From NCBI GenBank assembly GCA_947625845.1, contig CANQQB010000018.1:1-34406 (forward strand): 34,406 nt of DNA, in the 5' to 3' direction. The translations under genes were made by a program, and so were the position numbers. Under the pieces are notes generated by a model, which was not told where the DNA came from, searched no databases, and saw only the letters and a list, made by a program, of their open reading frames with translations. Every line of letters starts with the position of its first letter. The stretch's first letter is position 1. Positions 16,313-34,406 of this stretch are shown one piece after another. Origin of the DNA: an uncultured Oscillospiraceae bacterium. GTDB lineage: Bacteria; Bacillota; Clostridia; Oscillospirales; Oscillospiraceae.

Positions 16313-19300
16313 TTATTTCTTATATGTGATGCTCTTGCTGGCGCTCTTGGCGTTGTACAAGCTCTTGCCATCCTTGCTCGCCACCTGTACCGCAAAGGTG
16401 TACTTGGTCCCATTCTTGGCTTTCGTCCATGTGTAGCTGGTGGAAGTCGTGTCCGCAATCTTTGTCCAATCACCGGAGCCGGTCTTATAGAACACCCGGT
16501 AAGCAGCCGCGCCGCCCACTTTACCCCAGGTGAGCTTCACGCCGTTGCTCGCATTGGACACCTTGCTTATTTTCACCTGACCGATATAGGTTTTATTATA
16601 GCTGGCACTCTTGGCGTTATAGAGGCTCTTGCCGTCCTTGCTGACCACCTGCACCGCAAAGGTGTACTTGGTCCCGCTCTTGGCCTTCGTCCAAGTGTAA
16701 CTCGTCGCGGCGGTGTCCGCTATCTTCTTCCAATCCCCGGACCCGGTCTTGTAGAATACCCGATAAGCGGCCGCGCCGCCGACCTTACCCCAGGTAAGCT
16801 TCACGCCGGTGGGCTTATTCTCAGCCTTGCTGATTTTTACCTGCCCGATATATGTCTTGTTGAATCCGTCACTCTTGGCGTTATACAGGCTTTTGCCATC
16901 CTTGCTCGCCACCTGTACCGCAAAGGTGTACTTGGTCCCGCTCTTGGCTTTCGTCCAGGTATAATCCGTCTTGGTTGTGTCCCCGATCTTCGTCCAGTCC
17001 CCGGACCCGGTTTTGTAAAACACCCGGTAAGCGGCAGCGCCTCCCACTTTACCCCAGGTAAGTTTTACGCCTGTGGGCTTGTTCTCCGCCTTGCTGATTT
17101 TTACCTGGCCGATATATTTTTTGCTCGTTCCCGCCTTGTCGTAGTTGCCGCCGGTGTTGGTCTTATCAAAGGCGCGAACGGTGAATGTGTATGTCGTGCC
17201 GCTCTTGGCCTTGGTCCATGTATAGCTGGTCGCGGTAGTGTCCGCTATCTTCGTCCAGGAACCGGAGCCGGTCTTGTAGTAGACCCGGTATTTGGCCGCG
17301 TCGGTGACCTTGCTCCACGTGAGTTTCACACCCGTTGGCTTATTCTCCGCCTTGCTGATCTTGGGAGCCGCAAGCAGGGGCACTTTGCCGAGGGATTTAA
17401 ATTTATACCCATATTCTTCCGCGTAGGCCTGGGCCGTGGAACCGGCATAGCCGCGGATAATCGTGGTCCCGGATTCCCCTAATGTGTAACTGGAATCATT
17501 AATGACACAGTATGGGCTCAGCACTGTCAGGCTCGTCAGACTTTTGCAGCCAAAAAACGCCCCCTCCCCGATGCTGGTCACGTCGGCCGGGATGGTCACG
17601 CTCGTCAGGGACGTGCAATCATAAAACGCATCGTCCCCGATGCTGGTCACGGTATCCGGGATGGTCACGCCCGCCAGCGGCATGCAATTGTAAAACGCAT
17701 AATCCCCGATGCTGGTCACGCCGCGGGGGATGTCGTACACGTCGGAAAGGCCTGCCGGGAAGCAAACGAGTTCCGTTCCGGCCGCGTTGAACAGCACCCC
17801 TCCCACAGAGCGGTAATTGCTGTTCCCTGTCTCGACCTTGATCTCTTTCAGACCGGTACAATGACTAAACGCAGATCCGGCAATGCTGGTCACGCTGTCC
17901 GGGATCGTCACGCTGGTCAGCGAACTACACCCTTCAAACGCACCAAACCCGATGCTGGTCACGCCGGCTGAGATGGTCACGCTCGCCAGGGACGTGCAGT
18001 AGTAGAACGCGCCAAACCCGATACTGGTCACGCTGCCTGGGATCGTCACGTTGGGCAGCGACGTGCACCAGCCAAACGCATCTTCTCCGATGCTGGTCAC
18101 GCCGGCTGAGATGGTCACGCTCGCCAGGGACGTGCAGTAGTAGAACGCACCCTCCCCGATGCTGGTCATGCTGTCCGGGATCGTTACGCTGGTAAGCGAC
18201 GTGCAGCGTGCAAACGCTTGGAGCCCGGTGTAGGTCACACCATTGCCGAGCGTCAAACTGGTCAGCAAGTCGCAACAATAAAATGCATACTCCCCGATGC
18301 TGGTCACGCTGTCCGGGATCGTCACGCTGCTCAGCGCCGTACCGGAAAATGCCCAGCCCCCGATGGTAGTTATGCCATTTTCGATGACAACTGTTTTGAT
18401 GGAAGATCGATAGGAATACCACGGGGAATTGTCAGAAGGAAAGTCCGCCATCGGCCCGGTGCCGGAGATGGTGAGCGTACCGTCGGAGAACAAAGACCAC
18501 TTGACGTTATCCCCGCACATGCCGGAGTCCGTCTCCGTTGGTTCAGGCTCGCCGAGAGACTCAAAGGTGTAGCCATTTTTAAAGGCATACGCCTGGGCTG
18601 TAGAACCGGTATAACCGTAGATCACCATTGTATTCGGACCACCCAGCGCCGAGTTCTTGATATCGCTGTTTGGGTTTAAGATGATCACGCTCGTTAGCCT
18701 GTTGCATTGGTAAAACGCTTGGTTCCCGATGCTGGTCACGCTGGCGGGGATCGTCACGCTCCGCAGCGACGTGCAATCCTCGAACGAATGCTCCCCGAGG
18801 CTTTTTACGCCGTCTTCGATCGTCAGGTTTTCCAGGGCCAAGCACCTGAAAAACACTTGGTTCCCGATGGTTTCCACGCCTGCGGAGATCGTCACGGTCT
18901 TCAGATTGGTGCAGGACTGGAAAGCGCCACCATACCACCAATCGCCATTAATGCTGGTCACGCTGCCGGGGATCGTCACGCTGGGCAACGACGCGCAGCC
19001 CCTAAACGCACCTTCCCTGATGGTGGTCACGCCATTCTCGATCGTCAAGTTCGTCATATGATTGCAGTCACGAAACGCACAGTACCCGATAGTGGTCACG
19101 CTGCCGGGGATCGTCACGCTCTGCAACGACGTGCAGCCTCCAAACGCAGATTCCCCGATGTAAGTCACGCTATTCCCGATTGTTAAGTTGGCCAGGGACG
19201 CGCAGGAATCAAACGCATATTGCCCGATACCAGTCACACTGCCCGGAATCGTCACGTTTGGCAACGCCGTGCAGCTCCTGAACGCATATTCCCCGATGTA

Positions 19301-19903
19301 GGTCACGCCATTTTCAATCGTCAAGCTCGCCAGAGACGTGCAGCCACCAAATGCATCGCTCCAGATGTTGACCACACTGCCGGGGATAGTCACGCTCTGC
19401 AACGACGTGCAGCCTCCAAACGCAGATTCCCCGATGCTGGTGACGCTGCCGGAAATCGATACGTTCTTCAACGAAATGCAGCCATTCAATGCCCAATCAC
19501 CGATGTTGGTAACGCCGGGACCGATCACCGCGGTTTCGATGTAATACTTGTTCCACGGAGATGACCAATAGTCCTCCATCACGCCCGTGCCGGAGATGGT
19601 AAGGGTGGTGCCAGAGATGGACCAATTTACATTCTCCCCGCAGGTGCCAGAGGCGATCACCGCCGCGGGCACGGGTTCGTCCACCGGCTCTTCCGTGACT
19701 TCGACCGGTTCTTCCGTCACGACGGGTTCTTCCGTGACTTCAACCGGTTCCTCTGTCACAACAGGTTCTTCCGTGACCTCAACGACTTCCTCCGTCACGA
19801 CTTCTTCTTCCGCCGTGACCGGTTCTTGCTCCGCGAACGCTGGTGCCGCCAGGGAGAACACCGTCGCCAGCGCCAGGAGCAAACATAAGCTGCGCTTTGC
19901 CAT
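16313..19903 (-). CDS. Secreted BspA-type leucine-rich-repeat protein with four C-terminal FN3-like domains
   Basis: A 1,196-aa protein from ATG 19903 (AAAGGTG upstream). Residues 1-24 are a signal peptide (MAKRSLCLLLALATVFSL... AFA). Next comes a Glu/Thr/Pro/Val linker (EVTEEPVVTEEP units, to about residue 75). Two blocks of BspA-like LRR_5 repeats of about 23 residues follow, each opened by a CGENVNWSI- or CGDNVKWSL-type strand; repeats read SLTSVTIPDSVTSIGEYAF. Each block is closed by a GYTGSTAQAYA or GYAGSTAQAYA turn. From about residue 845 four tandem units of 88-90 residues, KISKAENKPTGVKLTW... YRVFYKTGSG... YTWTKAKSGTKYTF, have FN3-like strands. No sortase motif or membrane anchor is visible. 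Such proteins mediate adhesion or matrix binding; the ligand is unknown. A strong promoter and a structured leader precede it. Confidence 0.92.
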   Translation of the reverse strand: MAKRSLCLLLALATVFSLAAPAFAEQEPVTAEEEVVTEEVVEVTEEPVVTEEPVEVTEEPVVTEEPVEVTEEPVDEPVPAAVIASGTCGENVNWSISGTTLTISGTGVMEDYWSSPWNKYYIETAVIGPGVTNIGDWALNGCISLKNVSISGSVTSIGESAFGGCTSLQSVTIPGSVVNIWSDAFGGCTSLASLTIENGVTYIGEYAFRSCTALPNVTIPGSVTGIGQYAFDSCASLANLTIGNSVTYIGESAFGGCTSLQSVTIPGSVTTIGYCAFRDCNHMTNLTIENGVTTIREGAFRGCASLPSVTIPGSVTSINGDWWYGGAFQSCTNLKTVTISAGVETIGNQVFFRCLALENLTIEDGVKSLGEHSFEDCTSLRSVTIPASVTSIGNQAFYQCNRLTSVIILNPNSDIKNSALGGPNTMVIYGYTGSTAQAYAFKNGYTFESLGEPEPTETDSGMCGDNVKWSLFSDGTLTISGTGPMADFPSDNSPWYSYRSSIKTVVIENGITTIGGWAFSGTALSSVTIPDSVTSIGEYAFYCCDLLTSLTLGNGVTYTGLQAFARCTSLTSVTIPDSMTSIGEGAFYYCTSLASVTISAGVTSIGEDAFGWCTSLPNVTIPGSVTSIGFGAFYYCTSLASVTISAGVTSIGFGAFEGCSSLTSVTIPDSVTSIAGSAFSHCTGLKEIKVETGNSNYRSVGGVLFNAAGTELVCFPAGLSDVYDIPRGVTSIGDYAFYNCMPLAGVTIPDTVTSIGDDAFYDCTSLTSVTIPADVTSIGEGAFFGCKSLTSLTVLSPYCVINDSSYTLGESGTTIIRGYAGSTAQAYAEEYGYKFKSLGKVPLLAAPKISKAENKPTGVKLTWSKVTDAAKYRVYYKTGSGSWTKIADTTATSYTWTKAKSGTTYTFTVRAFDKTNTGGNYDKAGTSKKYIGQVKISKAENKPTGVKLTWGKVGGAAAYRVFYKTGSGDWTKIGDTTKTDYTWTKAKSGTKYTFAVQVASKDGKSLYNAKSDGFNKTYIGQVKISKAENKPTGVKLTWGKVGGAAAYRVFYKTGSGDWKKIADTAATSYTWTKAKSGTKYTFAVQVVSKDGKSLYNAKSASYNKTYIGQVKISKVSNASNGVKLTWGKVGGAAAYRVFYKTGSGDWTKIADTTSTSYTWTKAKNGTKYTFAVQVASKDGKSLYNAKSASKSITYKK
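16325..17370 (-). repeat. Four tandem FN3-like units at DNA level
   Basis: Four in-frame units of about 267-270 bp encode the FN3-like domains. The last three are closely similar in DNA, each with KTYIGQVKISK-type junctions; the first differs more (AFDKTNTGGNYDKAG region). This indicates recent internal duplication. Confidence 0.8.
17949..18148 (-). repeat. Recently duplicated LRR block
   Basis: The 62 bp at 17949-18010 recur without a difference at 18087-18148. The offset is 138 bp, exactly two 69-bp (23-residue) LRR units. Identity at synonymous sites points to recent duplication or gene conversion. Confidence 0.85.
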
Positions 19904-23273: not shown

Positions 23274-24392
23274 ATGGGGACGAACGACATCACCACCGTC
23301 CAGCCAATTGAATATGACGCCGTCCTGTATGGGCACATGACGCCTGCTGAGGCGGCCGCGTATCTGCAGGACGGCCGGGTAGTCCCCCGCTCCTTTGGGG
23401 AGACGCTTCGCCTGATGTACCCCTATGCCGACCTGCAAAGCCGACTGATGGGTTTTTTTGCGTCCCAGCCGGGTGCGGAGGCGCGTGCCGTGCGCCGAAA
23501 TGTCCGCAACTGGCTGGGCGCCCGGCATCATCCCTCCAACCGGCGGGACGTGTTCGGCATCGCCTTTGCCCTGCGGCTGACGGAACAGCAGCTGGACCAT
23601 CTTCTGTGCGTTTGCACCGACTACGGCATCCAGTACCGCAACGGCTGGGAGGCGGTGTTCTCCTGGTTTTTGCGCAATGGCCGCGCCTGGCAGGAGGCGG
23701 CGGACTTTTACGGCGCGCTGCCCGAGCCTCCCGGTCTGGAACAGGTCACCGGCCGGGAGGCGTCCCAGCTCACCAGGGAGATACGCGACGAGATGCTCCT
23801 GGCCGTCACCCTCCCGGAGCTGGAGGCATGCTACAGGCGGAATCTGGACAAATTCGGCTCCCTGCATCTGCGGGCGTACTACTATTTCGAGCTCTATATG
23901 CGCCAGCTGATCCGGCCTGAGCCGCCGTGGGTAGACGAGGAGGAGCGGGATTACTCCGTGGAGACGGTGATGGAGACCTATCTCACCGTCCACATGCCCA
24001 GCGGCACCAGCCGGAAGGGCTTCAGCGTGGTCCAGCGGCTGGTCAAGCAGAACTGGCCTAACGCCACGGGCCTGAAGAATATCCGCCTGCACAAAAAGGA
24101 CGTGCCCCGGAAGCTGCTTCTGCTTCTGTACGTGGTGACGGAGAACGTAGGGGTCCAGGACGGACCGTACGACGAGGACTACGGGGAGGAGGACCTGACC
24201 GTCGAGGAACGGCTGGACGACCACTGGTGGACCCTCAATGCCCTGCTGGCCGACTGCGGCATGGCCCCGCTGGACCCCCGCAACGCCACCGACTGGCTCA
24301 TCCTGTACTGCATGTGCGGCGACCCGGACGAGCCCATGAGCGACAGGCTGGAGCAGGTCATCAAGCATATGTTCAAAAATATCCGGGACTGA
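23274..24392 (+). CDS. Uncharacterised 372-aa protein with helix-turn-helix-like N-terminal region
   Basis: I do not recognise a named family. The protein is soluble, with no signal peptide or membrane span. Residues about 40-110 look like a helix-rich regulator module: SFGETLRLMYPYADL, then RRNVRNWLGARHHPSNRRDV followed by FGIAFALRLTEQQLDHLL. The NWLxxxxxPSNRxDVFxIxFALxLxEEQ pattern resembles Firmicutes proteins in which an XRE-like DNA-binding unit precedes a long helical domain. The remainder is helical and acidic, with KGFSVVQRLVKQNWPNATGL, a KKDVPRKLLLLLYVV helix and a DYGEEDLTVEERLDDHWW segment near the end. The start is at ATG 23274; the nearest Shine-Dalgarno-like AGGA is rather far, so the start is moderately sure. 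It converges on the kinase genes and shares the terminator at 24405-24434. A regulatory partnership with them is possible but unproven. Confidence 0.8.
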   Translation: MGTNDITTVQPIEYDAVLYGHMTPAEAAAYLQDGRVVPRSFGETLRLMYPYADLQSRLMGFFASQPGAEARAVRRNVRNWLGARHHPSNRRDVFGIAFALRLTEQQLDHLLCVCTDYGIQYRNGWEAVFSWFLRNGRAWQEAADFYGALPEPPGLEQVTGREASQLTREIRDEMLLAVTLPELEACYRRNLDKFGSLHLRAYYYFELYMRQLIRPEPPWVDEEERDYSVETVMETYLTVHMPSGTSRKGFSVVQRLVKQNWPNATGLKNIRLHKKDVPRKLLLLLYVVTENVGVQDGPYDEDYGEEDLTVEERLDDHWWTLNALLADCGMAPLDPRNATDWLILYCMCGDPDEPMSDRLEQVIKHMFKNIRD

Positions 24393-24446: not shown

Positions 24447-27400
24447 CTATTCGACCTCCCACACCGGCTCGACACCCTCCACGTCCACCTGATCGTTCCA
24501 GCCGTCCCTGCGGAACAGCCGGAGCGCGCCGCTGTTTTGGATGGGGACGGCGACCTGCTTGGGCACGTCCAGGTACATCTCGCCCCGGTTCACCAGCGCG
24601 CCGGCCGCGTCAAGGCGGCCCTCCTCCTGGCCGCCTATCCACACGCTGCCGTCGTTTTCCAACGTGGCGTCCGCCGTCATGGTCACGTCCGCGCGGCTGA
24701 AGGTGAGCCAGCACGTCTCGCCCACCGTGACCGCGCAGCCGTCCAGCCGGACCGTTTTTCCGGCAAAGCGCACCGACGTGCCGTCCCCCGCCAGGGTCAG
24801 CGCCCCGCCCGCCAAAACCGCGTCCCCGGGGAAAAGGAGCTCCCCGCTGGTGACGGATATGCCGGTCTCGCGGGCGGAGAAGCCGCCCCGGAAGGGGGTG
24901 AAAACGTTGGCGCCGTCCTCCGCCGTCATGTCCGCGCCGTCCATGGTGAACTGCTCCGCACGCATGGGCGCGAACAGCCCGCCGCGCACGGTGATGTGCA
25001 CCTCGTCCAGGGTCAGGCTCCGGCACTCGCCGCACAGGACCGCGGCCGGTCCCAACAGAGCCAGCTCCCCGCCCGGCGCCACCGTCAGGGAGCAGCCGTC
25101 CGTCAGCGCCGCCGTGCTGCCTTCGTACACCCGCAGAGCATCGGCCTGCAGCGAACCGCTCTTCCACAGGACCAGGGCTGTGCCACGGACGGTGATGGGG
25201 GCATCGGGTCCCGCCGTCACAGCGCCGCCGATGTACAGGGGCGTCGTCACCTCCAGCGGGCCGGTGAGCGTCATGTCGCCGGGCACATAGACCGGGTCCG
25301 TACCCTCCAGCGCCTGGTGCAGGGAGGACTCGTCCTCCGCCGTGACGTATCCCTCCGGCAGCCGTTCCAGGGAGGGCGTGTGCAGATAGCCCAGCCAGCC
25401 AAGCTGGCCCTCGCCGTCCCGCCGGACCGTGCCCGGCCCCAGCACCCGGCCGCTGGCCCGCACCTCGTCCGATACGGCCTCCACCGCGCCGTGGCGGTTA
25501 TAGAGAAGCCCTACCCAGATATCCTGGCCGTCACCCAGCCGGATGAGCCCGTCGTTGACCGTCCGCACCGCACTTTCGAAGACGCAGCCGTCGCGGGCGG
25601 TGAACACGCCGCCGTTATAAAACGCGCCGTCGTTCGAGAAGGACATGCCGGGGGACGGCCAGTCCACCGCCAGCAGCTCCAGTTGGCCCAGGTTCACCAG
25701 GGTCCCGCCGGCGACGGTGAGGACGCCTGTTTCCATCCGACCCAGGTTCACCAGCTCCCCGCCCGCCGACACGCAGCCCCAGTCATCCGGCGTGAACGTG
25801 CCGCCGTTGACCATCAGGGTGCCGCCGTACAGGCGGACGGACCCGCCTTCCCCGGTCCCGGCCAGGTTCCCGCCGTTATACACCACGGCGTCCTTCGCCT
25901 CCAGGCGGCAGGCCATCTCTCCCTCGTTGGCCAGCACGGAGCCGTTCAGCAGAAAGCCCGCGCCGGGCACGGCGTCGATCCGCACGCCGGGGGCGACGAA
26001 CACCGTCTTGCCGGCCAAGTCGTATGGCCTGTCCAGCGTCATGTCCGCGTCGAGCAGGAGCGTGTCGTAAAGCCGCAGCCCCTCCTGAAGCTGCCACAGG
26101 TCCGAGGCCGGCTGGGTATTTTCCCGCCGGGGCAGCAGCCGCAGCCGGCCGGCCATCGCCTGGACCAGGTCCCGGTCCATGGAAAGGTTGCCGCCCTCGT
26201 CCATGAGCACCACGGCCAGCTCCTCCCCGTCCGGCGACATGGTCCCCGCCAATTGCAGCCGGGTGCCGGACCCCTCCAGGAGGATGAGCCCCCGGCAGTC
26301 CAGTTCCCCGTCCACCCGCAGGGCGCTGCCCTCCGGCACGGTCAGCCGGTTGGCGAACAGGGTGGAGCCGCTTTTGGTCATCAGGGGCTTTTCCAGCACG
26401 AACGGCTCGCCCGCCGGGTCGTTCAGGTCCAGCACCGCGCCCTCGCCCAGGACCACGGCAGGCACGCCGTCATCCTCCATGAGCCGGCGAAGCGTCTCCG
26501 GGCCGTAGGCCCCGTCCTCCAGCGCCGCCGCGCCGTCGAACAGGCGCGTGTCGATGGCCGCGCCGCCGCCGGGGGTTCCGTCGTCGGCCGCCGGACCGGG
26601 CGCGGACCGGCCCAGAAAGGCCCACAGTCCCCCGGCCAGCACCAGCGCCACAGCCGCCGCGGCGGCGGCTGCCGCGAGCCGGCCCTTCCGCCGGCGGGAG
26701 GGCTTCTCGGCCTCGATTATGGTGATCTTCTCCGGCGTCTGCCAGGGTCCTTTTGGCTCCGGGAGCGGGGCGGCGTCTTCGTATAAAGCCTCGTATAGCT
26801 GTCCCATGGAGCGGAACCGCCGCCTTGGCTGGATGCACAGTCCTCTCAATATGGCGCGCTCCTGCCGTCCCGTCAGGGACACTCCCAGCTTGCTGGGCAG
26901 CAGCAGCGTGTCCTCCGGGACCCGGTCAAGGGGCTGAGGCGGCGTCTGCCCCGTCAGGCAGTAGTACATGGTGGCGCACAGGGCGTACACGTCCGTCCAG
27001 GGACCCTGGCCTTTTTGCCGGTATTGCTCGATGGGGGCGTAGCCATATTTGAGGGAGATGGTCAGCGTCCGCCGTCCGGCGGCTGTCTCCCGCGCGCAGC
27101 CGAAATCCAGAAGCCGGGCCCGCCCGTCCTCCAGCATGATATTGTCCGGGGAGATGTCCCGGTGGACCAGTCCCGCGGCGTGGAGCTTTCCCAGTGCCAG
27201 ACATACCGGTTCCAGCAGGGGGAATAATTCCTCCGGCGGCACCCGGCCGCCCCGCTGGGCCGTCAGGGCCGTCAGCGTGACGCCCTGCACGTACTCCATG
27301 ACGATATAGGCGGTGCCATTGGCCTCGAAAAAGTCCCGCACGCCCACGATGGCCGGCTGTTTTTCCATCCGGGCCATGACCCGCGCTTCCTCCAAAAACC

Positions 27401-27725
27401 GCTGTCTGCCCCGGTCGAAGCCCTCCGGCGGCATGCCCACCAGACTGACCACCGCCGGGAAATCGGCGGCGCTGCGGGCAGCCCTGTCACGGGGGTAATA
27501 CTCCTTCACGGCCACCTTCACGTCCAGGCGGGTGTCCAGGCCCACGTAGGTGATGCCGAACCCTCCCTCGCCCAGCACCGCGCCCAGCAGATACCGTTCC
27601 TCCAGCAGCGTCCCCGGCGGCAGGTGGTGGACCTGGGGCGCGTAGGCCGTGTCCCGTCCGCAGACGGGACAGACCGCTTCATCGCCGCGCAGCGGCGCCA
27701 TACAGTATGGACAACGCTTTTCCAG
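24447..27725 (-). CDS. Transmembrane Ser/Thr protein kinase with beta-helix-like ectodomain (kinase A)
   Basis: A 1,092-aa protein if CTG 27725 is the start, with GGGAGG 8 nt upstream. Starting at ATG 27701 would cut off half of the zinc ribbon (Cys5, Cys8, Cys19, Cys22), which the paralogue retains. Residues about 45-320 are an active-looking kinase: G-loop GEGGFG (52-57), Lys74 in VAVKEYYP, alpha-C Glu in FLEEARVMARME, HRD 188-190 in HRDISPDN, DFG 207-209, and APIEQY. One membrane span lies at about 350-372. Outside, about 700 residues form short repetitive beta strands (VVLGEGAVLDLNDP, LVNLGQLELLAV, FYNGGVFTARDG), consistent with a solenoid; there are no PASTA domains. It phosphorylates Ser/Thr of unknown targets. 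It is third of three tandem paralogues and has its own promoter. Confidence 0.9.
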   Translation of the reverse strand: MEKRCPYCMAPLRGDEAVCPVCGRDTAYAPQVHHLPPGTLLEERYLLGAVLGEGGFGITYVGLDTRLDVKVAVKEYYPRDRAARSAADFPAVVSLVGMPPEGFDRGRQRFLEEARVMARMEKQPAIVGVRDFFEANGTAYIVMEYVQGVTLTALTAQRGGRVPPEELFPLLEPVCLALGKLHAAGLVHRDISPDNIMLEDGRARLLDFGCARETAAGRRTLTISLKYGYAPIEQYRQKGQGPWTDVYALCATMYYCLTGQTPPQPLDRVPEDTLLLPSKLGVSLTGRQERAILRGLCIQPRRRFRSMGQLYEALYEDAAPLPEPKGPWQTPEKITIIEAEKPSRRRKGRLAAAAAAAAVALVLAGGLWAFLGRSAPGPAADDGTPGGGAAIDTRLFDGAAALEDGAYGPETLRRLMEDDGVPAVVLGEGAVLDLNDPAGEPFVLEKPLMTKSGSTLFANRLTVPEGSALRVDGELDCRGLILLEGSGTRLQLAGTMSPDGEELAVVLMDEGGNLSMDRDLVQAMAGRLRLLPRRENTQPASDLWQLQEGLRLYDTLLLDADMTLDRPYDLAGKTVFVAPGVRIDAVPGAGFLLNGSVLANEGEMACRLEAKDAVVYNGGNLAGTGEGGSVRLYGGTLMVNGGTFTPDDWGCVSAGGELVNLGRMETGVLTVAGGTLVNLGQLELLAVDWPSPGMSFSNDGAFYNGGVFTARDGCVFESAVRTVNDGLIRLGDGQDIWVGLLYNRHGAVEAVSDEVRASGRVLGPGTVRRDGEGQLGWLGYLHTPSLERLPEGYVTAEDESSLHQALEGTDPVYVPGDMTLTGPLEVTTPLYIGGAVTAGPDAPITVRGTALVLWKSGSLQADALRVYEGSTAALTDGCSLTVAPGGELALLGPAAVLCGECRSLTLDEVHITVRGGLFAPMRAEQFTMDGADMTAEDGANVFTPFRGGFSARETGISVTSGELLFPGDAVLAGGALTLAGDGTSVRFAGKTVRLDGCAVTVGETCWLTFSRADVTMTADATLENDGSVWIGGQEEGRLDAAGALVNRGEMYLDVPKQVAVPIQNSGALRLFRRDGWNDQVDVEGVEPVWEVE

Positions 27726-27758
27726 GTCCCTCGCCTCCCTCGCCGGGTCTATCTTTGG

Positions 27759-27788
27759 ATTGTATCACATTTCGCGCAAGCTTGTTAA
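27759..27788 (-). promoter_or_regulatory. Promoter of kinase A
   Basis: TTAACA (27788-27783), 18-nt spacer, and TACAAT (27764-27759), preceded by TG at the extended -10 position, on the minus strand. It lies in the 74-nt gap after the pseudokinase gene, so kinase A can be transcribed separately from the other two. Confidence 0.7.
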
Positions 27789-27799
27789 GTCTCATCCGC

Positions 27800-30700
27800 T
27801 CAATAGACGCGATCCGGCTGGTTTCCCTCCACCGGTATGTCGGCGTCGCACAGGTACATGATCCCGTTGTTGACGATATGCACCGTGTCGTCCGCCGTCA
27901 CGGTCGCGCCGACGTAGGGGTCCTCGATGCCGCCTAAGCCCACAAAGCCATCGTTGTTGACGATCTGCGTATTGCCCGTCAGGGATACCGCGTCGCAGGA
28001 AAGGATGAAGTTGCCTCCGTTGTTCATTGTCACCGTGCAGTCCCGCAGAGCGCCGGTCTGTCCCGATACGACGATCCCGGCGCCGTCGGAGACGGTGATG
28101 GTCCCGTTGGTCAGTTCACAGGGCGCGGAGCAGGTGATATCGCCTGTGGCCAGGGTCAGCGTCAGGTCCCGTGCGGAAAAGCCGGTCTGACAGGGGGGAA
28201 GCAGCGCGGCGGCGCCGATCGTTATCTGCGCGCCGTCCGCCGTGAGCGCGCCGCGCTCCATGACCACCCCGGAGCCGTCCTGCAGATCCACGGTCCTGCC
28301 GCTCAGATCCAGGTCGCTGTCGGGGCAATAGAGGGTCCCCTGCCGCATCCGCAGCGCGCCGGTGAAGCCGAGCGTGCTCTGTTCTCCCAGCACCGTCACC
28401 TCAGCGCCGTCCTGTATCGTCAGGTCCCCCGTGTTTAAGGCGCTGTCCCGCAGGACCAGCAGGCCTCCGCCGCCGACCGTCACGGACGGGGCGGTCAGGG
28501 TCCCGCCGTCCACATAGAGCTGGCCTGTGATCGTCAGCGCCTGGTCCAGGGACGCGTCACCCCGCAGGCACACCGGCGTCTGGCCGTTCAGGGCCGCCAG
28601 CAGCTCCTGGCCGCTATAGACCGCCACGGCCTCCGCCGGAACCTTGTACAGCTCCGCCCGGAGCGGGGTCACGTTGAGAAAGTTGGGATCGTCCTCCGGG
28701 GTCTCAATATGCCCCGCGTTCAGGAGCGCGCCGCCGGTGCAGGCCAGCGTGTCAGGCATCGGACGGAGAACGCCGCCGCGCCGGTTATAGACCACGCCGA
28801 TGCTGTCCAGCCGCGCGCCGTTGTCCAGGCGCAGACAGTTGTCGTTCACGATCCAGCCGCTGTTGTCCACGTAGCTGCCTTTGGTCATGTTCACCGCGGC
28901 GGCGTTGTACAACGTGCCGCCGTATCGCAGGTCCAGGTTGACGTCCCAGCTCTTTCTCGTCATATCGAGCTCGCCCACGTTGACCAGCCGGCCGCCCAGC
29001 ACGCTCAGGCCACAGCAGTTAAGGTCGCCCCAGTTCACCAGCCGGGCCGTCTCATACAGCGCGCCCTGGCGTATCTCCAGGGAGGCGTCGTTGACGAGCA
29101 TCCCGTGCTCCGACAGCGAGAACCCCTGCAGGTCGTACATGGTACCTAAGTTATACACAGCCCCGCCGGCCACGTTCATGTTGATGTGCATCTGGCCCAT
29201 GTTCACCAGCGTACCGCCTTCGCCCACCGTTATCCGGACATCCGTCTGCTTGCCCAGCGCGGCGGATACCGTGACGGCCTCGTCCACGAACAGCGTGGCG
29301 TTTTCCACCACCAGCTCCTCGGCCAGCGTCACGTCCGCCGTCAGCAGCACGCTCCCGCCGTTTTGCACGGCCTCCGCCAGGGACTGGGCGTCAGCCGCTT
29401 CCGTGACGTTCTTCGGCACAGTAGAGTGCTTGATGAAAAAGCTGTGCTGCAGGTCCTCGTCTATGAAGCTCTCGTCCATGAACAGGTTCGTGCCCGCGTC
29501 CATGAACAACGTCATCTCCGCGGCGTTCCGGCTCGTCAGCGGGTGGCTGACGGCCATTCTCACGCCGGAGCCGGACAGGTCGATCAGGCCCTGGCAGTCC
29601 AGGTCTCCGTCCAGCACCAGAAGGCCGCCTTTGGGTATCTGCATGGCGCTTACGCGCAGCAGCGCCCCGGACTCCACCCACAGAGGTTTTGTCACCGTGA
29701 AGTCGCAGGCGTTCGCCGACGCCACGGCGCCCTCCCGCAGCACGATGGCCGGCACCGTATCGTCCGCCATCAGGTCCAGCATGGTCTGCGTGTCATACTC
29801 CCCCGCCGAGAGGGTCCGCGCGCCGGCGAACACCGTCATATCGGGCGCGGAGCCGGACCCCGGCGCGGCCGTCGGCTTGGGCGTGGCGGTGGGTCTGGGC
29901 GTGGGCTTGGCCGTGGGCTCCGCCGTGGCGGTGGGCTCGGCCGTGGGCTCCGCCTTTTCCGGGGGCAGCACCCCCGTGGCGAACAGCGCCGCCGCGCCGA
30001 TGGCCGCGGCACCCAGGATAGCCAGCGCGGCGATCCAGCCCCGGTGCTTGTGCGGAACGGGGTCGGGCTTTGGCGGTATGATCATATCCTCTTTACGCAG
30101 ATATGGCTTTGGAATGACGCCTTTATATATCCCGTCGTATAGCTCGGAGATGCTCTGGAACCGTTCCTGCCGCCGCACGCGCAGGCCGATGGTCACGGCC
30201 AGGCTCTGCATGCGGCTCACCGACACGTCCAGCTCGCTCATGGAGATGAGCGGGTCGTCCTCCTGCCGGTCGGGAGCCGCCGGCGGCGTCCGGCCGGTCA
30301 GGCAGTAATAGATCGTGGCGCTCAGGCCGTACACGTCCGTCCAGGGACCCTGCTCGTCGCTGAAGTATTGCTCCAGAGCGGAGAAGCCCGCGTGGGTCGT
30401 GGAGGACAGGGTATAGGTCTGCCCGCCGCCGGTCTCCCTGGCGCTGGCGAAGTTGATGAGCCGGGCGTTGTCCCGCTCCAGGATGATGTTGTCCGGGGTG
30501 ATGTCCCGGTGGTACAGGCCCTTTTTGTGCAGCGCCTCCAGCGCGATGAACACGTTTTCCAGCAGGGCGAACAGCTTGCCCGACGCCATGGGACCGGAGG
30601 ACTTTACCCGCTGCCGGAGGGTGGAGCCGGTCACATACTCCGTGACCAGATAGACCGTCCCGTTGGCCTCGAACAGGTCCTGCACGTCCACGACGGCGGA

Positions 30701-31081
30701 TTGCTTCTCCATTTTGGCCAGGATCTTTGCCTCCCGCGTGAAGTTGCGCCGCCCCCGCTCAAACGCGCTGATGGCGCCGCTGATATCCGTCGTGCTGGCG
30801 CGCACCTCGGCTGACTGTGCGGCGTCCCGGTCGGCCTGACCGCTGGGAAAGAACTCCTTCACGGATACTCTTTTGTGCAGCAGCAGGTCCCGGCCGATGT
30901 AGGTGATACTGGCCTCGTCGTCTTGCAGCACGCCGCCCAGGATGTACTTGTCGACGAGCACCGTGCCCGGCCGCAGATAGGCGGGGGCCGGGACGTATTC
31001 CGCCGGCCGCCGGCCGCAGGCGGGGCAGACGTCCTCCGTTCCCAGCACCGTCATACAGTACGGGCAGTATCGTTTCTCCAT
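27800..31081 (-). CDS. Predicted transmembrane pseudokinase with beta-helix-like ectodomain (kinase B)
   Basis: A 1,093-aa protein from ATG 31081, with AAAGGAGAG directly upstream; the longer frame from 31150 starts inside the preceding gene and was rejected. The zinc ribbon is complete (Cys6, Cys9, Cys19, Cys22). In the kinase domain the G-loop is QDDEAS (53-58) instead of GEGGFG, and the metal-binding DFG is NFA (210-212, codons AAC TTC GCC), while Lys75 (VSVKEFFP) and HRD 191-193 (HRDITPDN) remain. Loss of both nucleotide loop and DFG Asp predicts little or no catalysis. One membrane span is at about 349-372, then a Pro/Thr/Glu linker (EPTAEPTATAEPTAKP) and about 690 residues of short beta-rich repeats (LVNWGDLNCCGLSVLGGRL). 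It begins 16 nt after kinase C stops, so the two are translated from one mRNA. Confidence 0.9.
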   Translation of the reverse strand: MEKRYCPYCMTVLGTEDVCPACGRRPAEYVPAPAYLRPGTVLVDKYILGGVLQDDEASITYIGRDLLLHKRVSVKEFFPSGQADRDAAQSAEVRASTTDISGAISAFERGRRNFTREAKILAKMEKQSAVVDVQDLFEANGTVYLVTEYVTGSTLRQRVKSSGPMASGKLFALLENVFIALEALHKKGLYHRDITPDNIILERDNARLINFASARETGGGQTYTLSSTTHAGFSALEQYFSDEQGPWTDVYGLSATIYYCLTGRTPPAAPDRQEDDPLISMSELDVSVSRMQSLAVTIGLRVRRQERFQSISELYDGIYKGVIPKPYLRKEDMIIPPKPDPVPHKHRGWIAALAILGAAAIGAAALFATGVLPPEKAEPTAEPTATAEPTAKPTPRPTATPKPTAAPGSGSAPDMTVFAGARTLSAGEYDTQTMLDLMADDTVPAIVLREGAVASANACDFTVTKPLWVESGALLRVSAMQIPKGGLLVLDGDLDCQGLIDLSGSGVRMAVSHPLTSRNAAEMTLFMDAGTNLFMDESFIDEDLQHSFFIKHSTVPKNVTEAADAQSLAEAVQNGGSVLLTADVTLAEELVVENATLFVDEAVTVSAALGKQTDVRITVGEGGTLVNMGQMHINMNVAGGAVYNLGTMYDLQGFSLSEHGMLVNDASLEIRQGALYETARLVNWGDLNCCGLSVLGGRLVNVGELDMTRKSWDVNLDLRYGGTLYNAAAVNMTKGSYVDNSGWIVNDNCLRLDNGARLDSIGVVYNRRGGVLRPMPDTLACTGGALLNAGHIETPEDDPNFLNVTPLRAELYKVPAEAVAVYSGQELLAALNGQTPVCLRGDASLDQALTITGQLYVDGGTLTAPSVTVGGGGLLVLRDSALNTGDLTIQDGAEVTVLGEQSTLGFTGALRMRQGTLYCPDSDLDLSGRTVDLQDGSGVVMERGALTADGAQITIGAAALLPPCQTGFSARDLTLTLATGDITCSAPCELTNGTITVSDGAGIVVSGQTGALRDCTVTMNNGGNFILSCDAVSLTGNTQIVNNDGFVGLGGIEDPYVGATVTADDTVHIVNNGIMYLCDADIPVEGNQPDRVY

Positions 31082-31097
31082 AACGCGCTCTCCTTTA

Positions 31098-34000
31098 TTA
31101 TTGTTGTTGTTGCTGTTGTTCCTCCGCTTGCAGCGCCGCTTCCTCTTCAAAGGTCATCGGCGGGTTGCCCATGTACATGTCGAACGGCTTGTAGGTCGGG
31201 TACGACTCGTTCTGCGCCACCACCAGCCGGCCCTGGTTGTCGATGGGCTGGCGCAAAACGACGCTGGTCATACCGATCTCCATCCTGCCGTAATTGGTGA
31301 TGCGGACCGTGGAGGCGGACCGGATGGAATACTCGTCCCAGCCGCTAAAGACCACATTGCCCCGGTTGACCAGCCTGGTGGAACCCTCCAGGGACAGATT
31401 GCACAGCATCGTCTGCATGTCGCCGCCGGCCACGTTGACCGTGCAGTCCCGCAGGACCGCGTCGCCCGCGAAGTCGATGCCTCCCGGCTGTTCCTCGCCC
31501 GTCTGCGACACGGTGATGTCCGCGCCGGTCAGCTCGCAGCCCGCGCAGACACGGAAGCATCCGCCGTTGAACAGACGCAGGCGAAGACCCTCGGCGGTCA
31601 GCTTGCCGCCTCTTGGCGGCGTGGCGGCCTCACATTCGCTGACGCTCACGTTCGCCTTGTCCAAGAGGAACGCGTCCAGCCGCGCCGGCATAAAGCTGGT
31701 GTTGTTTATATCCACCGTCGCGCCGGTCAGGTCCAGCGTGCCGCCCTCGGCCACAAAGGTCATGTGGCGCATTTGCAGCGTCCCGGTCACCTTCAGGCTG
31801 CCGCCCGCCGCCAGGCTCAGGTCCACGATGCCTTCCTGATCGTCCACTGGGAGCAGCCGCAGAGTCTCCAGCGTCACCGAGCCGCCGGACAGGATCGCCA
31901 GCGACCCTCTCGTCACGTTCAGGCTCTGGCCCCGCAGCATGCCGGTCACGTACAGCGGCGCCGCGACCTCCAGCGGCTCGCCCAGCGTCACGCTGCCCGC
32001 CACGCATATGCTCTGGCCGGCCCCGGCCGCCTGGCGCAGGGCCGCCTCGTCCCGGACGACGACGGCGTCCGCCGGCGCCTGGGCCAGCGGCGCGGTGTGG
32101 GCGATGACGAGGTTGCACGGCTGTCCCTCCGGGATCTCCGCGGTACCCGGTCCCGCGACGACGCCGTAGTGGGTGCCGGACAGGACGGCCTTGCCCCGGT
32201 TGTATATCTTGTATGCGGGGTTCCCTTCCATATCGGTGGAGCGGTCCTCAAACACCCCGTCGTTATAGATGACGCTGTCGCTGCAGATGCCGTACTGTCC
32301 GTCGGCCGTCAGCGTCCCGCCGTTGTACAACGAGCCTCTGTCGCAGACCTTCGTGCTGAACCAGAAGGGGTCCGGGTCCTGGGGGTCGATCGCGCCGACC
32401 TGGTGGCAGCCCAAAGAGCCCAGATTGGACAGCGAGCCCACGACCTCGAAGTGGTATAGATCGGCGGAACCCAGGTTGATCATGCGACCTTGCTCCCAGA
32501 TGCGGGAGATGAAGCCGCCGCCGACGTACTTGCCGTAGTTGAGCAGCACGCCGGATTCGAAATAGAGCCCGTCGTCCACCACGTCCCGGTCGCCGGTCGT
32601 CATGGAGCCGTAATTGAACACCCGTGCGCCGGGACCGCCGTCGCCGGCGTTGAGCGTGCCCACATAGGTCCCCTCGTTGACCAGAGTCACCGCTCCGTCC
32701 CTGGTGTACAGATAGAAGCCGTGCTCGGTGGCGCTCTGCACGGTCACGCCCTCGCTGATCCAGACCGTGACACCGGAGGGGAGGAAGGGGTCCATGACGG
32801 TCATGTCCGCGTCGATGGACACGTTTTGCTCGTTTTCCAGCGCCTCTTGCAGCTCCTCCGGCGTCTTCACCGATACCATGTCCTCCGTCTTCTGGGGCGC
32901 GGGCAGGAGTATGTCATACATGCTCTTGGCCAGGTCGTCGTTCTTAAAGCCGATGTTGGCCCCCGAGTCCATGACGACGGCGGCCATCTCCAGCGTATCG
33001 CCCGTAACGTCGCCGGTCATATAAAGCCGCGTGGCGCTGCCCTCCAGGGTGATGAGGCCCCGGCAGTCCAGCGTGCCGTCCATCTCCACGGCCACGCCGC
33101 CGGGGATGGTCAGCCAGTTGGCCCGCAATACGGCGCCCTTCTTCACCCACAGGGGCTTTCTCATGACGTATTCCCCGGCCGTGGGGTCGTTCAGGTCCAG
33201 CACCGCGCCCTGCTCCAGGACCACCGCCGTCACGTATGGGTCCGTCTGCATGGCGTCCAGGTCCGCCCGGCCGTATACCCCGGCGGTCAGGGTGCGACCC
33301 TCGGAGAAGATGGCCGTGTCCAGCGCCTCGCCGGAGCCGGGGGCCGGCGTGGGCTCTGGTGTTGGCGCGGGCGTGGGTGTGGGTTCCGCCGTGGCGGTGG
33401 GCTCTGGCGTGGGGGTTGGCGCCGACTCCGGGGGCAGCACCCCCGTGGCGAACAGCGTCCCTATCACCAGCGCCGCTGCCCCAAAGGCCGCGACTGTCGG
33501 CGCCAGCCACCGCTTCCACCAGGGCGTCGGGTCGGGAGGCGGAGCGGCGTACAGGTCCTTATGCAGCTCCTCCATGCTCTTATAGCGATCGCCGGCGGCG
33601 TAGCTCAGGCCCTTCAGCAGCGCCTGTTCCTGCTTTTCGGACAGGGGCACGCCCATCTTGGTGGGAGGGTGGAGCTTATCCTTCTCCTTGCGCTCATAGG
33701 CGGAGGGCGGCGTCTTGCCGGTCAGGCAGTAATAGAGGGTGGCGCAGAAGGCGTACACGTCCGTCCAGGGACCCTGGCCCTTGCTCTGGTATTGCTCCGG
33801 CGGGGTGTAACCCTCCTTCTTGAAGATGGCCTGAGTGCCCTCGCCCTTGGTGTCGCGGGCACAGCCGAAGTCCAGCAGCCGTACCTGGCTGCCCTCCAGC
33901 ATGATATTGTCCGGGGAGATGTCCCGGTGGATGAGCCCCGCGTCGTGCACCACGGTCAGGGCCTGGAACAGCGGCTCCACCAGGTCGAGCAGCTCCCCCG

Positions 34001-34406
34001 GCGGGAGCTTGCCGCCCCGCTGGGCCACCAGGTCCTTGAGGGTGACGCCCTCCACGAACTCCATGACGATATAGGCGGTGTTGTTGTCCTCGAAAAAGTC
34101 CCGCACGCGCACGATGGCGGGCTGCTTTTCCAGCCGCGCCAATACCTGCGCCTCGTGCAGAAACCGGTCCTTGCCCTTCTCATAGCCCTCGCCCGCGCCG
34201 CTTTTGAGCACGTAGACACGGGTCGAGGAGGTGGCGCTGCGGGAGACCATCTCCCGTGGATAAAATTCCTTGATGGCCACCTTCATGTCCAGCGTCAGGT
34301 CCCGGCCCACATAGGTGATGCCGAAGCCTCCCTCGCCCAGCACGCTGCCCACCAGGTATTTGCCCCGCAGCAGCGTCCCCGGCGGCAGGTGAAACGGCGA
34401 CGGCTC
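31098..34406 (-). CDS. Transmembrane Ser/Thr protein kinase with beta-helix-like ectodomain (kinase C, 5' end outside window)
   Basis: The frame is open to the right edge, giving 1,102 visible residues; the N-terminal zinc ribbon expected from the paralogues lies beyond. The first GTG in frame (34352) falls inside the kinase G-loop region, so it is not the start. Visible numbering: HLPPGTLLRGKYLVGSV, GEGGFG 24-29, Lys46 (VAIKEFYP), alpha-C Glu85, HRD 160-162 (HRDISPDN) and DFG 179-181, all intact. A membrane span (VAAFGAAALVIGTLFATGVL) is followed by a Pro/Thr/Glu linker (TPTPEPTATAEPTPTPAP). About 700 residues of solenoid-like repeats come next (VLLNYGKYVGGGFI, LSNLGSLGCHQV, LYNGGTLTADGQ). 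The protein ends in an acidic tail and six glutamines. It is first in the kinase C-B-A series. Confidence 0.9.
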   Translation of the reverse strand, partial: EPSPFHLPPGTLLRGKYLVGSVLGEGGFGITYVGRDLTLDMKVAIKEFYPREMVSRSATSSTRVYVLKSGAGEGYEKGKDRFLHEAQVLARLEKQPAIVRVRDFFEDNNTAYIVMEFVEGVTLKDLVAQRGGKLPPGELLDLVEPLFQALTVVHDAGLIHRDISPDNIMLEGSQVRLLDFGCARDTKGEGTQAIFKKEGYTPPEQYQSKGQGPWTDVYAFCATLYYCLTGKTPPSAYERKEKDKLHPPTKMGVPLSEKQEQALLKGLSYAAGDRYKSMEELHKDLYAAPPPDPTPWWKRWLAPTVAAFGAAALVIGTLFATGVLPPESAPTPTPEPTATAEPTPTPAPTPEPTPAPGSGEALDTAIFSEGRTLTAGVYGRADLDAMQTDPYVTAVVLEQGAVLDLNDPTAGEYVMRKPLWVKKGAVLRANWLTIPGGVAVEMDGTLDCRGLITLEGSATRLYMTGDVTGDTLEMAAVVMDSGANIGFKNDDLAKSMYDILLPAPQKTEDMVSVKTPEELQEALENEQNVSIDADMTVMDPFLPSGVTVWISEGVTVQSATEHGFYLYTRDGAVTLVNEGTYVGTLNAGDGGPGARVFNYGSMTTGDRDVVDDGLYFESGVLLNYGKYVGGGFISRIWEQGRMINLGSADLYHFEVVGSLSNLGSLGCHQVGAIDPQDPDPFWFSTKVCDRGSLYNGGTLTADGQYGICSDSVIYNDGVFEDRSTDMEGNPAYKIYNRGKAVLSGTHYGVVAGPGTAEIPEGQPCNLVIAHTAPLAQAPADAVVVRDEAALRQAAGAGQSICVAGSVTLGEPLEVAAPLYVTGMLRGQSLNVTRGSLAILSGGSVTLETLRLLPVDDQEGIVDLSLAAGGSLKVTGTLQMRHMTFVAEGGTLDLTGATVDINNTSFMPARLDAFLLDKANVSVSECEAATPPRGGKLTAEGLRLRLFNGGCFRVCAGCELTGADITVSQTGEEQPGGIDFAGDAVLRDCTVNVAGGDMQTMLCNLSLEGSTRLVNRGNVVFSGWDEYSIRSASTVRITNYGRMEIGMTSVVLRQPIDNQGRLVVAQNESYPTYKPFDMYMGNPPMTFEEEAALQAEEQQQQQQ

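Follow-up and report, generated by a model that had tools for sequence, protein, structure and literature searches.

A tandem trio of receptor-type kinases, one of them a predicted pseudokinase, at the sensor end of a putative Ser/Thr phosphorylation operon in uncultured Oscillospiraceae

The window analysed here is a stretch of 34,406 nucleotides from an uncultured Oscillospiraceae bacterium (assembly GCA_947625845.1, contig CANQQB010000018.1); it corresponds to G000:C18:1-34406 of the source assembly G000 (2.5 Mb in 134 contigs, 78.5% complete). Its last 10 kb are filled by three large neighbouring open reading frames (ORFs) on the minus strand, in the order C, B and A, which encode receptor-type proteins with a kinase domain, one membrane span and a large predicted ectodomain. 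To judge from sequence, the trio is the sensor end of a larger operon with FHA proteins, PP2Cs, an FHA-tailed protease and a soluble kinase. It is best read as a receptor-kinase module with interchangeable, apparently fast-changing sensors, and this module and its architecture are predicted with high confidence. That the trio serves as the sensor end of a Ser/Thr phosphorylation operon is the best explanation overall, at a probability just short of even. A preliminary description had taken the trio alone to be the system. The operon speaks against that part; the proposed membrane receptor-kinase system with solenoid-type ectodomains stands as a prediction.

Gene C (31098..34406, minus strand) is cut at its 5' end by the contig end; it carries the motifs GEGGFG, VAIK, HRDISPDN and DFG, and comprises a kinase domain (about 33537-34379), a transmembrane segment (33438-33494), a Pro/Thr linker and an ectodomain (31101-33326). 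Gene B (27800..31081, minus strand) encodes a zinc ribbon (31013-31066), a predicted pseudokinase domain (about 30122-30964), a transmembrane segment (29978-30034) and an ectodomain (27803-29848). Gene A (24447..27725, minus strand, inferred CTG start) encodes a zinc ribbon (27657-27713), a kinase domain (about 26781-27614), a transmembrane segment (26613-26669), a short Gly/Pro/Ala linker and an ectodomain (24450-26558). The stop of C lies 16 nt from the start of B, and the stop of B 74 nt from the start of A. Pfam Pkinase was matched by all three proteins (E-values of 1.2e-34 for C, 4.2e-23 for B and 5.1e-28 for A), and identity to C is 37% for B and 42% for A, which confirms the three adjacent paralogues described before at 24447-34406. 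The single membrane span and the ectodomains of about 700 residues were also borne out: each protein gave a single hydropathy peak above 1.6, located after the kinase domain, and the ectodomains of C, B and A measure 742, 682 and 703 residues. PASTA was absent as described, with no match in C, B or A (Pfam, E up to 1). The best NCBIfam match of C and A was the PASTA kinase family (7.6e-47 and 1e-39), and scores against this family (NF033483) were 160.6 bits for C, 90.1 for B and 137.1 for A, all below the 450-bit cut-off; identity of the trio as PASTA kinases was rejected on these two grounds.

Other features ascribed to all three proteins were recovered in part. The N-terminal zinc ribbon (CPYC...CPxCG) is directly visible in B; that of C would lie beyond the contig end and is present in 4/4 C orthologues. 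In A it precedes the first ATG and is in frame only with the CTG at 27725 as start. Since no ATG, GTG or TTG occurs between this CTG and the upstream stop, the zinc ribbon of A needs the CTG, and gene A appears to start there. The CTG is kept in four orthologues; two of them, those of G011 and G020, have in addition an ATG in frame at a more upstream position. The Pro/Thr linker is found in C and B, not in A. The ectodomain anchors VVL.(Q/E)GAVLDLNDP and LDCRGLI are common to C and A, and their counterparts in B are IVLREGAVASANAC and LDCQGLI. The designation "three kinases" holds for A and C, which have a complete set of Hanks catalytic motifs and are predicted to be active, and fails for B, a conserved predicted pseudokinase (5/5 genomes).

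The operon was read in relatives of the same genus. In G011, G020, G030 and G017 the gene order is DUF805-FHA, zinc-ribbon-FHA (ZnR-FHA), PP2Ca, PP2Cb, trypsin-FHA, soluble zinc-ribbon kinase, C, B and A; in G018 the set is split over two contigs and includes at least five receptors. Domain assignments were backed by Pfam on ten proteins from G011, G030 and G018, with ZnR-FHA of G011 slightly under the FHA cut-off (19.6 against 20.7 bits) and that of G018 without an FHA match in Pfam. The protease begins with a signal-like segment, crosses the membrane by one further span and ends in an FHA domain. In G000 itself, part of the upstream set lies on contig C112, which aligns at 90.2% to G011 directly upstream of the stretch where the window aligns at 85.8%. 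Synteny suggests that the two contigs form one operon; about 3 kb between them, in the G011 frame, are in neither contig, and a search of G000 for the protease gave none at 1e-15.

In gene B the glycine loop GEGGFG is replaced by QDDEAS and DFG by NFA; VSVK and HRD are kept. Orthologues in all five genomes with B have xDDxAS or SQDTSS at the glycine loop and NFA for DFG, and retain the VxxK lysine and HRD (5/5). B is therefore predicted to be a pseudokinase. The HRD-to-DFG segment was readable in 94 of the 107 kinase-domain ORFs of the fetched loci (a set that excludes the window and includes four B orthologues), and the aspartate was absent only in those four. Seven of the 13 unreadable ORFs were inspected: four had motifs in a form outside the search pattern, and three were degenerate, namely a soluble relative in G018, a truncated kinase in G519 and, in G199, a kinase N-lobe with a zinc ribbon apparently fused to a PP2C domain (L145, 1925-3130, plus strand). 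With the B orthologues, these three indicate that degenerate kinases recur in this operon type. The ratio of nonsynonymous to synonymous change (dN/dS) of the B kinase domain is 0.36-0.53 across genome pairs, and the domain is therefore still constrained. B was compared with the published descriptions of three pseudokinase families, and with its VSVK lysine, HRD, transmembrane segment and NFA it fits none of them; the COG3899 fusion of CP1 was not searched for. ActPs3 is degraded in all three motifs, DYD has the beta-3 lysine changed to arginine together with a DYD motif, and CP1 is without a transmembrane segment and fused to COG3899 (PMC12599244). The most likely role for B would be that of a phospho-scaffold, which we hold at about even probability.

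The ectodomains are predicted, with good confidence, to fold as right-handed beta-helices. Asparagine ladders mark this fold, and the family alignment, with repeats of about 20 residues, agrees with the coils and stacked asparagines of such a helix. Asn-Gly motifs number 11 in the ectodomain of C and 8 in that of A, and 4 in that of B, against shuffle means of 0.5, 0.4 and 0.7 and maxima over 1000 shuffles of 4, 3 and 5, respectively. Alignment A2 holds 19 of the 20 ectodomains found in the genus, one G018 receptor that spans two fetched pieces being left out. In it, eight Asn columns are spaced 17, 23, 20, 18, 23, 20 and 18 residues apart, seven of them invariant and one at 95%, and three further invariant Asn columns are spaced 22 and 18. 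When the set is widened to 27 ectodomains, of which seven genomes of other genera contribute 8, five ladder asparagines remain invariant. Over 37 lags, the autocorrelation of the profile peaks at lag 22, with a z of 3.7 for the whole and 6.6 for the second half. Among the 27 family ectodomains, Pectate_lyase_5 (PF20585) was matched by seven at E 0.1 (best 3.4e-12), and at E 0.01 by five of the eight from other genera; Beta_helix was matched by one (0.0028). Whole protein B matches Beta_helix at 0.002, below the family cut-off, and Pectate_lyase_5 was not found in whole proteins A, B and C at E 1. The 19-row profile gave nothing against solved structures at E 1.

Six of 35 genomes of the genus contain the ectodomain family of the window, five of them with three copies and one with five; no genome had only one or two copies, several assemblies being incomplete. 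The preliminary description would have fallen had the genes never occurred together, and they occur together in each of these six genomes. The family is present in at least 6 of 394 genomes across the order, the window's own included, a lower bound in that at most two candidates were scored per genome and G130 has an ectodomain kinase outside the count; outside the genus it occurs in seven or more genomes. The marker gene ZnR-FHA was found in 34/394 order-level and 31/391 class-level genomes (samples that share the window's genome and three others), and the idea of an oddity specific to the window was rejected on this distribution. Around marker matches beyond the loci already described, 58 neighbourhoods from 55 genomes were fetched and scanned with local models. 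PP2C was present in 56, a trypsin-FHA protease in 32, at least one kinase in 41 and two or more kinases in 20; a membrane kinase with a tail of at least 100 residues occurred in 35, and of at least 250 residues in 25. Kinase tails were scanned by Pfam (E up to 1e-5), 47 of 49 being kept and two that run into the end of the stretch left out; a further tail, L143, was kept although it too reaches the end of its stretch. The 47 tails included PASTA (7), MORN (3), F5/8 type C (3), SBP_bac_8 (3), Listeria-Bacteroides repeats (3), leucine-rich repeats of overlapping kinds (LRR_8 4, LRR_5 3, LRR_4 3), RCC1 (1), WG (1) and others; the remaining tails matched none of the 23 Pfam families listed.

In a kinase-domain tree of 37 sequences (midpoint-rooted for drawing; one G018 receptor with a cut kinase left out), A, B and C each formed one clade across five genomes, with support of 100/98, 100/100 and 98/95; receptors of other genera formed one group and soluble kinases another. 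Since each clade holds all five genomes, the triplication is most likely older than the five species. The ectodomains have changed much faster than the kinase domains. Between G000 and G011 or G020, dN/dS was 0.15-0.19 (C), 0.37-0.40 (B) and 0.07-0.09 (A) for the kinase domain, and 0.64-0.72, 0.83-0.91 (the highest of the three) and 0.57-0.59 for the ectodomain. In none of the six comparisons did the bootstrap intervals of the two parts overlap, the gap being minimal for B against G020 (0.65 and 0.66). For C, B and A, respectively, the pair G000-G030 gave 0.28, 0.36 and 0.16 for the kinase domain and 0.70, 0.83 and 0.56 for the ectodomain, and the pair G011-G020 gave 0.27, 0.53 and 0.13 and 0.61, 0.85 and 0.56. 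Scans in 80-codon windows, without correction, found dN in excess of dS around residues 715-820: the comparison with G011 showed it in each of C, B and A, that with G020 only in B and A, at bootstrap shares of 0.75-0.98. Other such windows lie elsewhere, e.g. near 981 in B. For the G011-G020 protease the outside part had a dS of 0.83 and a dN of 0.77, and the FHA part a dS of 0.13; in B of G011 the ectodomain dS was 0.39-0.41 and that of the kinase part 0.15-0.16. Both dS contrasts fit segment exchange. The PP2Cs gave a dN/dS of 0.22 and 0.30 (G011-G020), PP2Ca 0.32 and 0.32 (G000 against G011 and G020), and gene 10, a convergent neighbour described below, 0.10 (G000-G020). Alanine racemase, compared for G000-G011 only, had a dS of 0.389 and a dN of 0.070, this dS being roughly double the kinase-domain values of 0.16-0.18; the dN/dS set holds no surface-protein control.

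These features can be joined in a signalling chain. The ectodomains would bind a ligand outside the cell, and binding would alter the association among the receptors. A and C would then phosphorylate one another as well as B and the soluble kinase, with B acting as phospho-scaffold. FHA domains, including that of the protease, would dock on the phosphothreonines, and docking of the protease would allow the kinase state inside to position or gate the protease outside; the PP2Cs would reset phosphorylation. The most original step proposed is this link, through the FHA tail, between kinase state inside and protease outside. The step from a phosphorylated pseudokinase to an FHA protein has a precedent, since MviN, once phosphorylated by PknB, recruits FhaA (PMC12599244). 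As to the ligand, the ectodomains and, between two genomes, the outside part of the protease change much faster than the kinase domains, so a variable one (a polymorphic surface molecule, phage, or a host or diet glycan) would be more likely than invariant peptidoglycan, a preference held at clearly less than even confidence. The fast-changing ectodomains speak against an invariant wall polymer as the sole ligand, without excluding a wall polymer. The whole chain as stated, from ligand to protease, is more doubtful still.

Several observations weigh against this account. For the fold, B is the one ectodomain with an Asn-Gly count inside its shuffle range, and the ladder region itself shows little autocorrelation (best z 2.7, at lag 18). 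Pfam gave the C ectodomain of the window no match at E 0.1; of the seven ectodomains with Pectate_lyase_5, at least five belong to other genera; and the top match among solved structures, 4wa0, is weak with an E-value of 0.017. For the operon, 17 of the 58 neighbourhoods have no kinase and 26 no trypsin-FHA protease, in some because the contig is cut; some of the kinase-free ones look like a kinase-less variant and others are short contigs. For phosphothreonine docking, the ISR..H residues with which FHA domains bind phosphothreonine are absent from ZnR-FHA in 4/4 sequences of the genus, and are kept in 6/7 from other genera (alignment A6); ZnR-FHA of the genus may thus not bind phosphothreonine. 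For the rates, dN/dS between G011 and G020 was 0.42 for the soluble kinase, 0.42 for DUF805-FHA, 0.48 for ZnR-FHA and 0.58 for the FHA part of the protease, and G000 against G011 and G020 gave 0.60 and 0.40 for ZnR-FHA and 0.30 and 0.41 for DUF805-FHA. These values come up to that of the A ectodomain. Inside the receptors the rate contrast is strong, as it is relative to PP2C and gene 10, but relative to the FHA parts it is weak; because these also reach 0.6, they lower the confidence in the variable ligand, in the whole chain and in the explanation overall. Values of dN/dS were obtained by Nei-Gojobori counts, which ignore codon bias, and high values could reflect relaxed constraint.

The same ectodomains could serve adhesion or carbohydrate sensing, with beta-helices binding plant or mucus polysaccharide and the kinases reporting attachment. 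The description of Pectate_lyase_5 is that of an adhesive domain resembling pectate lyase, F5/8 type C (3/47) and solute-binding domains (3/47) are present in other operons, and five relatives are uncultured Oscillospiraceae with isolate names starting with "Lapin", taken as rabbit gut. However, no carbohydrate-active domain was found among the ten operon proteins scanned and the structural match cited above is weak, and we regard this explanation as somewhat unlikely. A role in cell-wall homeostasis, in which the trio would sense peptidoglycan or another wall polymer like PrkC/PknB and tune wall synthesis, with ectodomain variability as drift, is less likely again. The best NCBIfam match of C and A, albeit under its cut-off, points that way, and PASTA in 7/47 tails of related operons indicates that the core can serve wall sensing. 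A, B and C themselves lack PASTA, however, and ectodomain dN/dS values of 0.57-0.91, with dN above dS near 715-820, would be odd for an invariant ligand.

Defence or self/non-self recognition, with the ectodomains seeing phage or neighbour cells and the protease as effector, appears improbable. It would agree with extracellular parts that are fast and partly exchanged, with the patchy distribution (34/394) and with matches of the kinase domains to the PADLOC models PD-T4-6 and mad6 (best 3.7e-50); these matches are limited to the kinase domain, though, with the gene context of MAD not searched for, and the ten scanned operon proteins include no nuclease or similar effector. That B is merely decaying and the trio an ordinary duplication without joint function would accord with the long stem of B in the tree (0.7) and its dN/dS, the highest of the three genes, but was rejected as very improbable, B being intact in 5/5 trio genomes with its lysine and HRD kept and its kinase domain below neutrality.

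Mycobacteria carry an operon of fhaA, fhaB, pstP, pknA and pknB, and we know of no FHA-tailed protease among mycobacterial kinase and FHA partners. Hanks kinases of the receptor type are already known to carry a variety of ectodomains (PMC6213207, PMC4601284), and the trio is for this reason a variant of known receptor kinases. The PASTA kinases PrkC, StkP and PknB share with it a cytoplasmic Hanks kinase, one membrane span, extracellular repeats and a partner PP2C (PMC6213207, PMC4601284); the trio differs from them in having no PASTA, an N-terminal zinc ribbon, three tandem receptors with one pseudokinase, and an FHA-tailed protease in the operon. Mycobacterial PknB, the PknD propeller, FhaA and MviN resemble the trio operon in diverse ectodomains, FHA readers and an FHA-recruiting pseudokinase, which is part of MviN in that system and a receptor paralogue in the case of B (PMC4601284, PMC12599244). 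The closest solved kinase domain is that of PpkA (5hnv, 7.2e-45), and type VI PpkA, PppA and Fha are kinase, PP2C and FHA as in the trio operon, whereas ectodomains and protease differ (PMC6213207). The third theme of GAP1-N2 systems, a zinc-ribbon kinase with PP2C and vWA, is alike in parts, but is described as restricted to actinobacteria and includes GTPase, GAP1 and vWA genes (PMC7159879); none of these was found in the ten operon proteins scanned, and the loci were not searched for them. EssB/YukC (type VII) is, like B, a transmembrane pseudokinase of Firmicutes, but EssB is degraded in all three motifs (PMC12599244), whereas B keeps the lysine and HRD and has a 682-residue ectodomain. 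In the literature covered (partial, and limited to the leading matches where these were many) no description of this operon was found, which agrees with a candidate undescribed system; receptor kinases with diverse ectodomains as such were known.

Gene 10 (23274..24392, plus strand) encodes a convergent protein of 372 residues. It adjoins the receptor array in 5/6 genomes of the genus, is not beside A in G011, and in other genera lies close to operons of this type in seven genomes. It gave no match in Pfam, NCBIfam or PADLOC, and a role as output regulator would be a guess. TrkA- and TrkH-like genes lie near the operon in G011 (L040, 399-3284) and two class-level genomes (L166, 1941-4634; L168, 2124-5108); they are 41-45% identical and their placement is possibly chance. 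Proteins of 130 and 133 residues are encoded between two operon kinases in two genomes (L138, 2335-2727, and L141, 14784-15185, both minus strand), and a vWA-like protein about 6 kb past the receptor array of G018 (G018:C4:10344-10991, plus strand). Another kinase family of the same genus (G.GSFG.V), with very large tails and tandem copies, is found at L050 (G018:C237, 1096-9796) and L051-L053 (G012), in proteins of up to 1828 residues. A type VII-like cluster, read by eye, lies at G000:C8:14459-46053 (L054, L055), with small WXG-like proteins, a 1583-residue EssC-like protein, a PP2C and kinases.

The window further encodes, at 2-5719 on the minus strand, a surface protein that runs off the contig end; its 1906 residues include Beta_helix_3 repeats (2.3e-36), and it had nine matched stretches in G011 and none in G020. 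A BspA-type leucine-rich repeat (LRR) and fibronectin III (fn3) surface protein (16313-19903, minus strand) had 58 such stretches in G011 and 4 in G020, suggesting paralogue expansion. The LRR-fn3 and Beta_helix_3 proteins were dropped as surface control for dN/dS because paralogue expansions make orthology unsafe.

On a broader and more speculative comparison, which we consider on the unlikely side, the system would be a bacterial counterpart of plant receptor-kinase arrays: a conserved phospho-signalling chassis (FHA proteins, PP2C, soluble kinase and FHA-tethered protease) with plug-in sensors (beta-helix, PASTA, leucine-rich, MORN, RCC1 and solute-binding), a pseudokinase co-receptor, recognition-driven diversification, segment exchange and an extracellular protease output controlled from inside. 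The operon may have been overlooked, as its ectodomain differs between genomes and gene A has an apparent CTG start. For bacterial receptor kinases only a small number of ligands and outputs are known, and the operon poses testable questions: whether phosphorylation inside can lead to proteolysis outside, what role a receptor pseudokinase plays, and what drives the fast change of the receptors.

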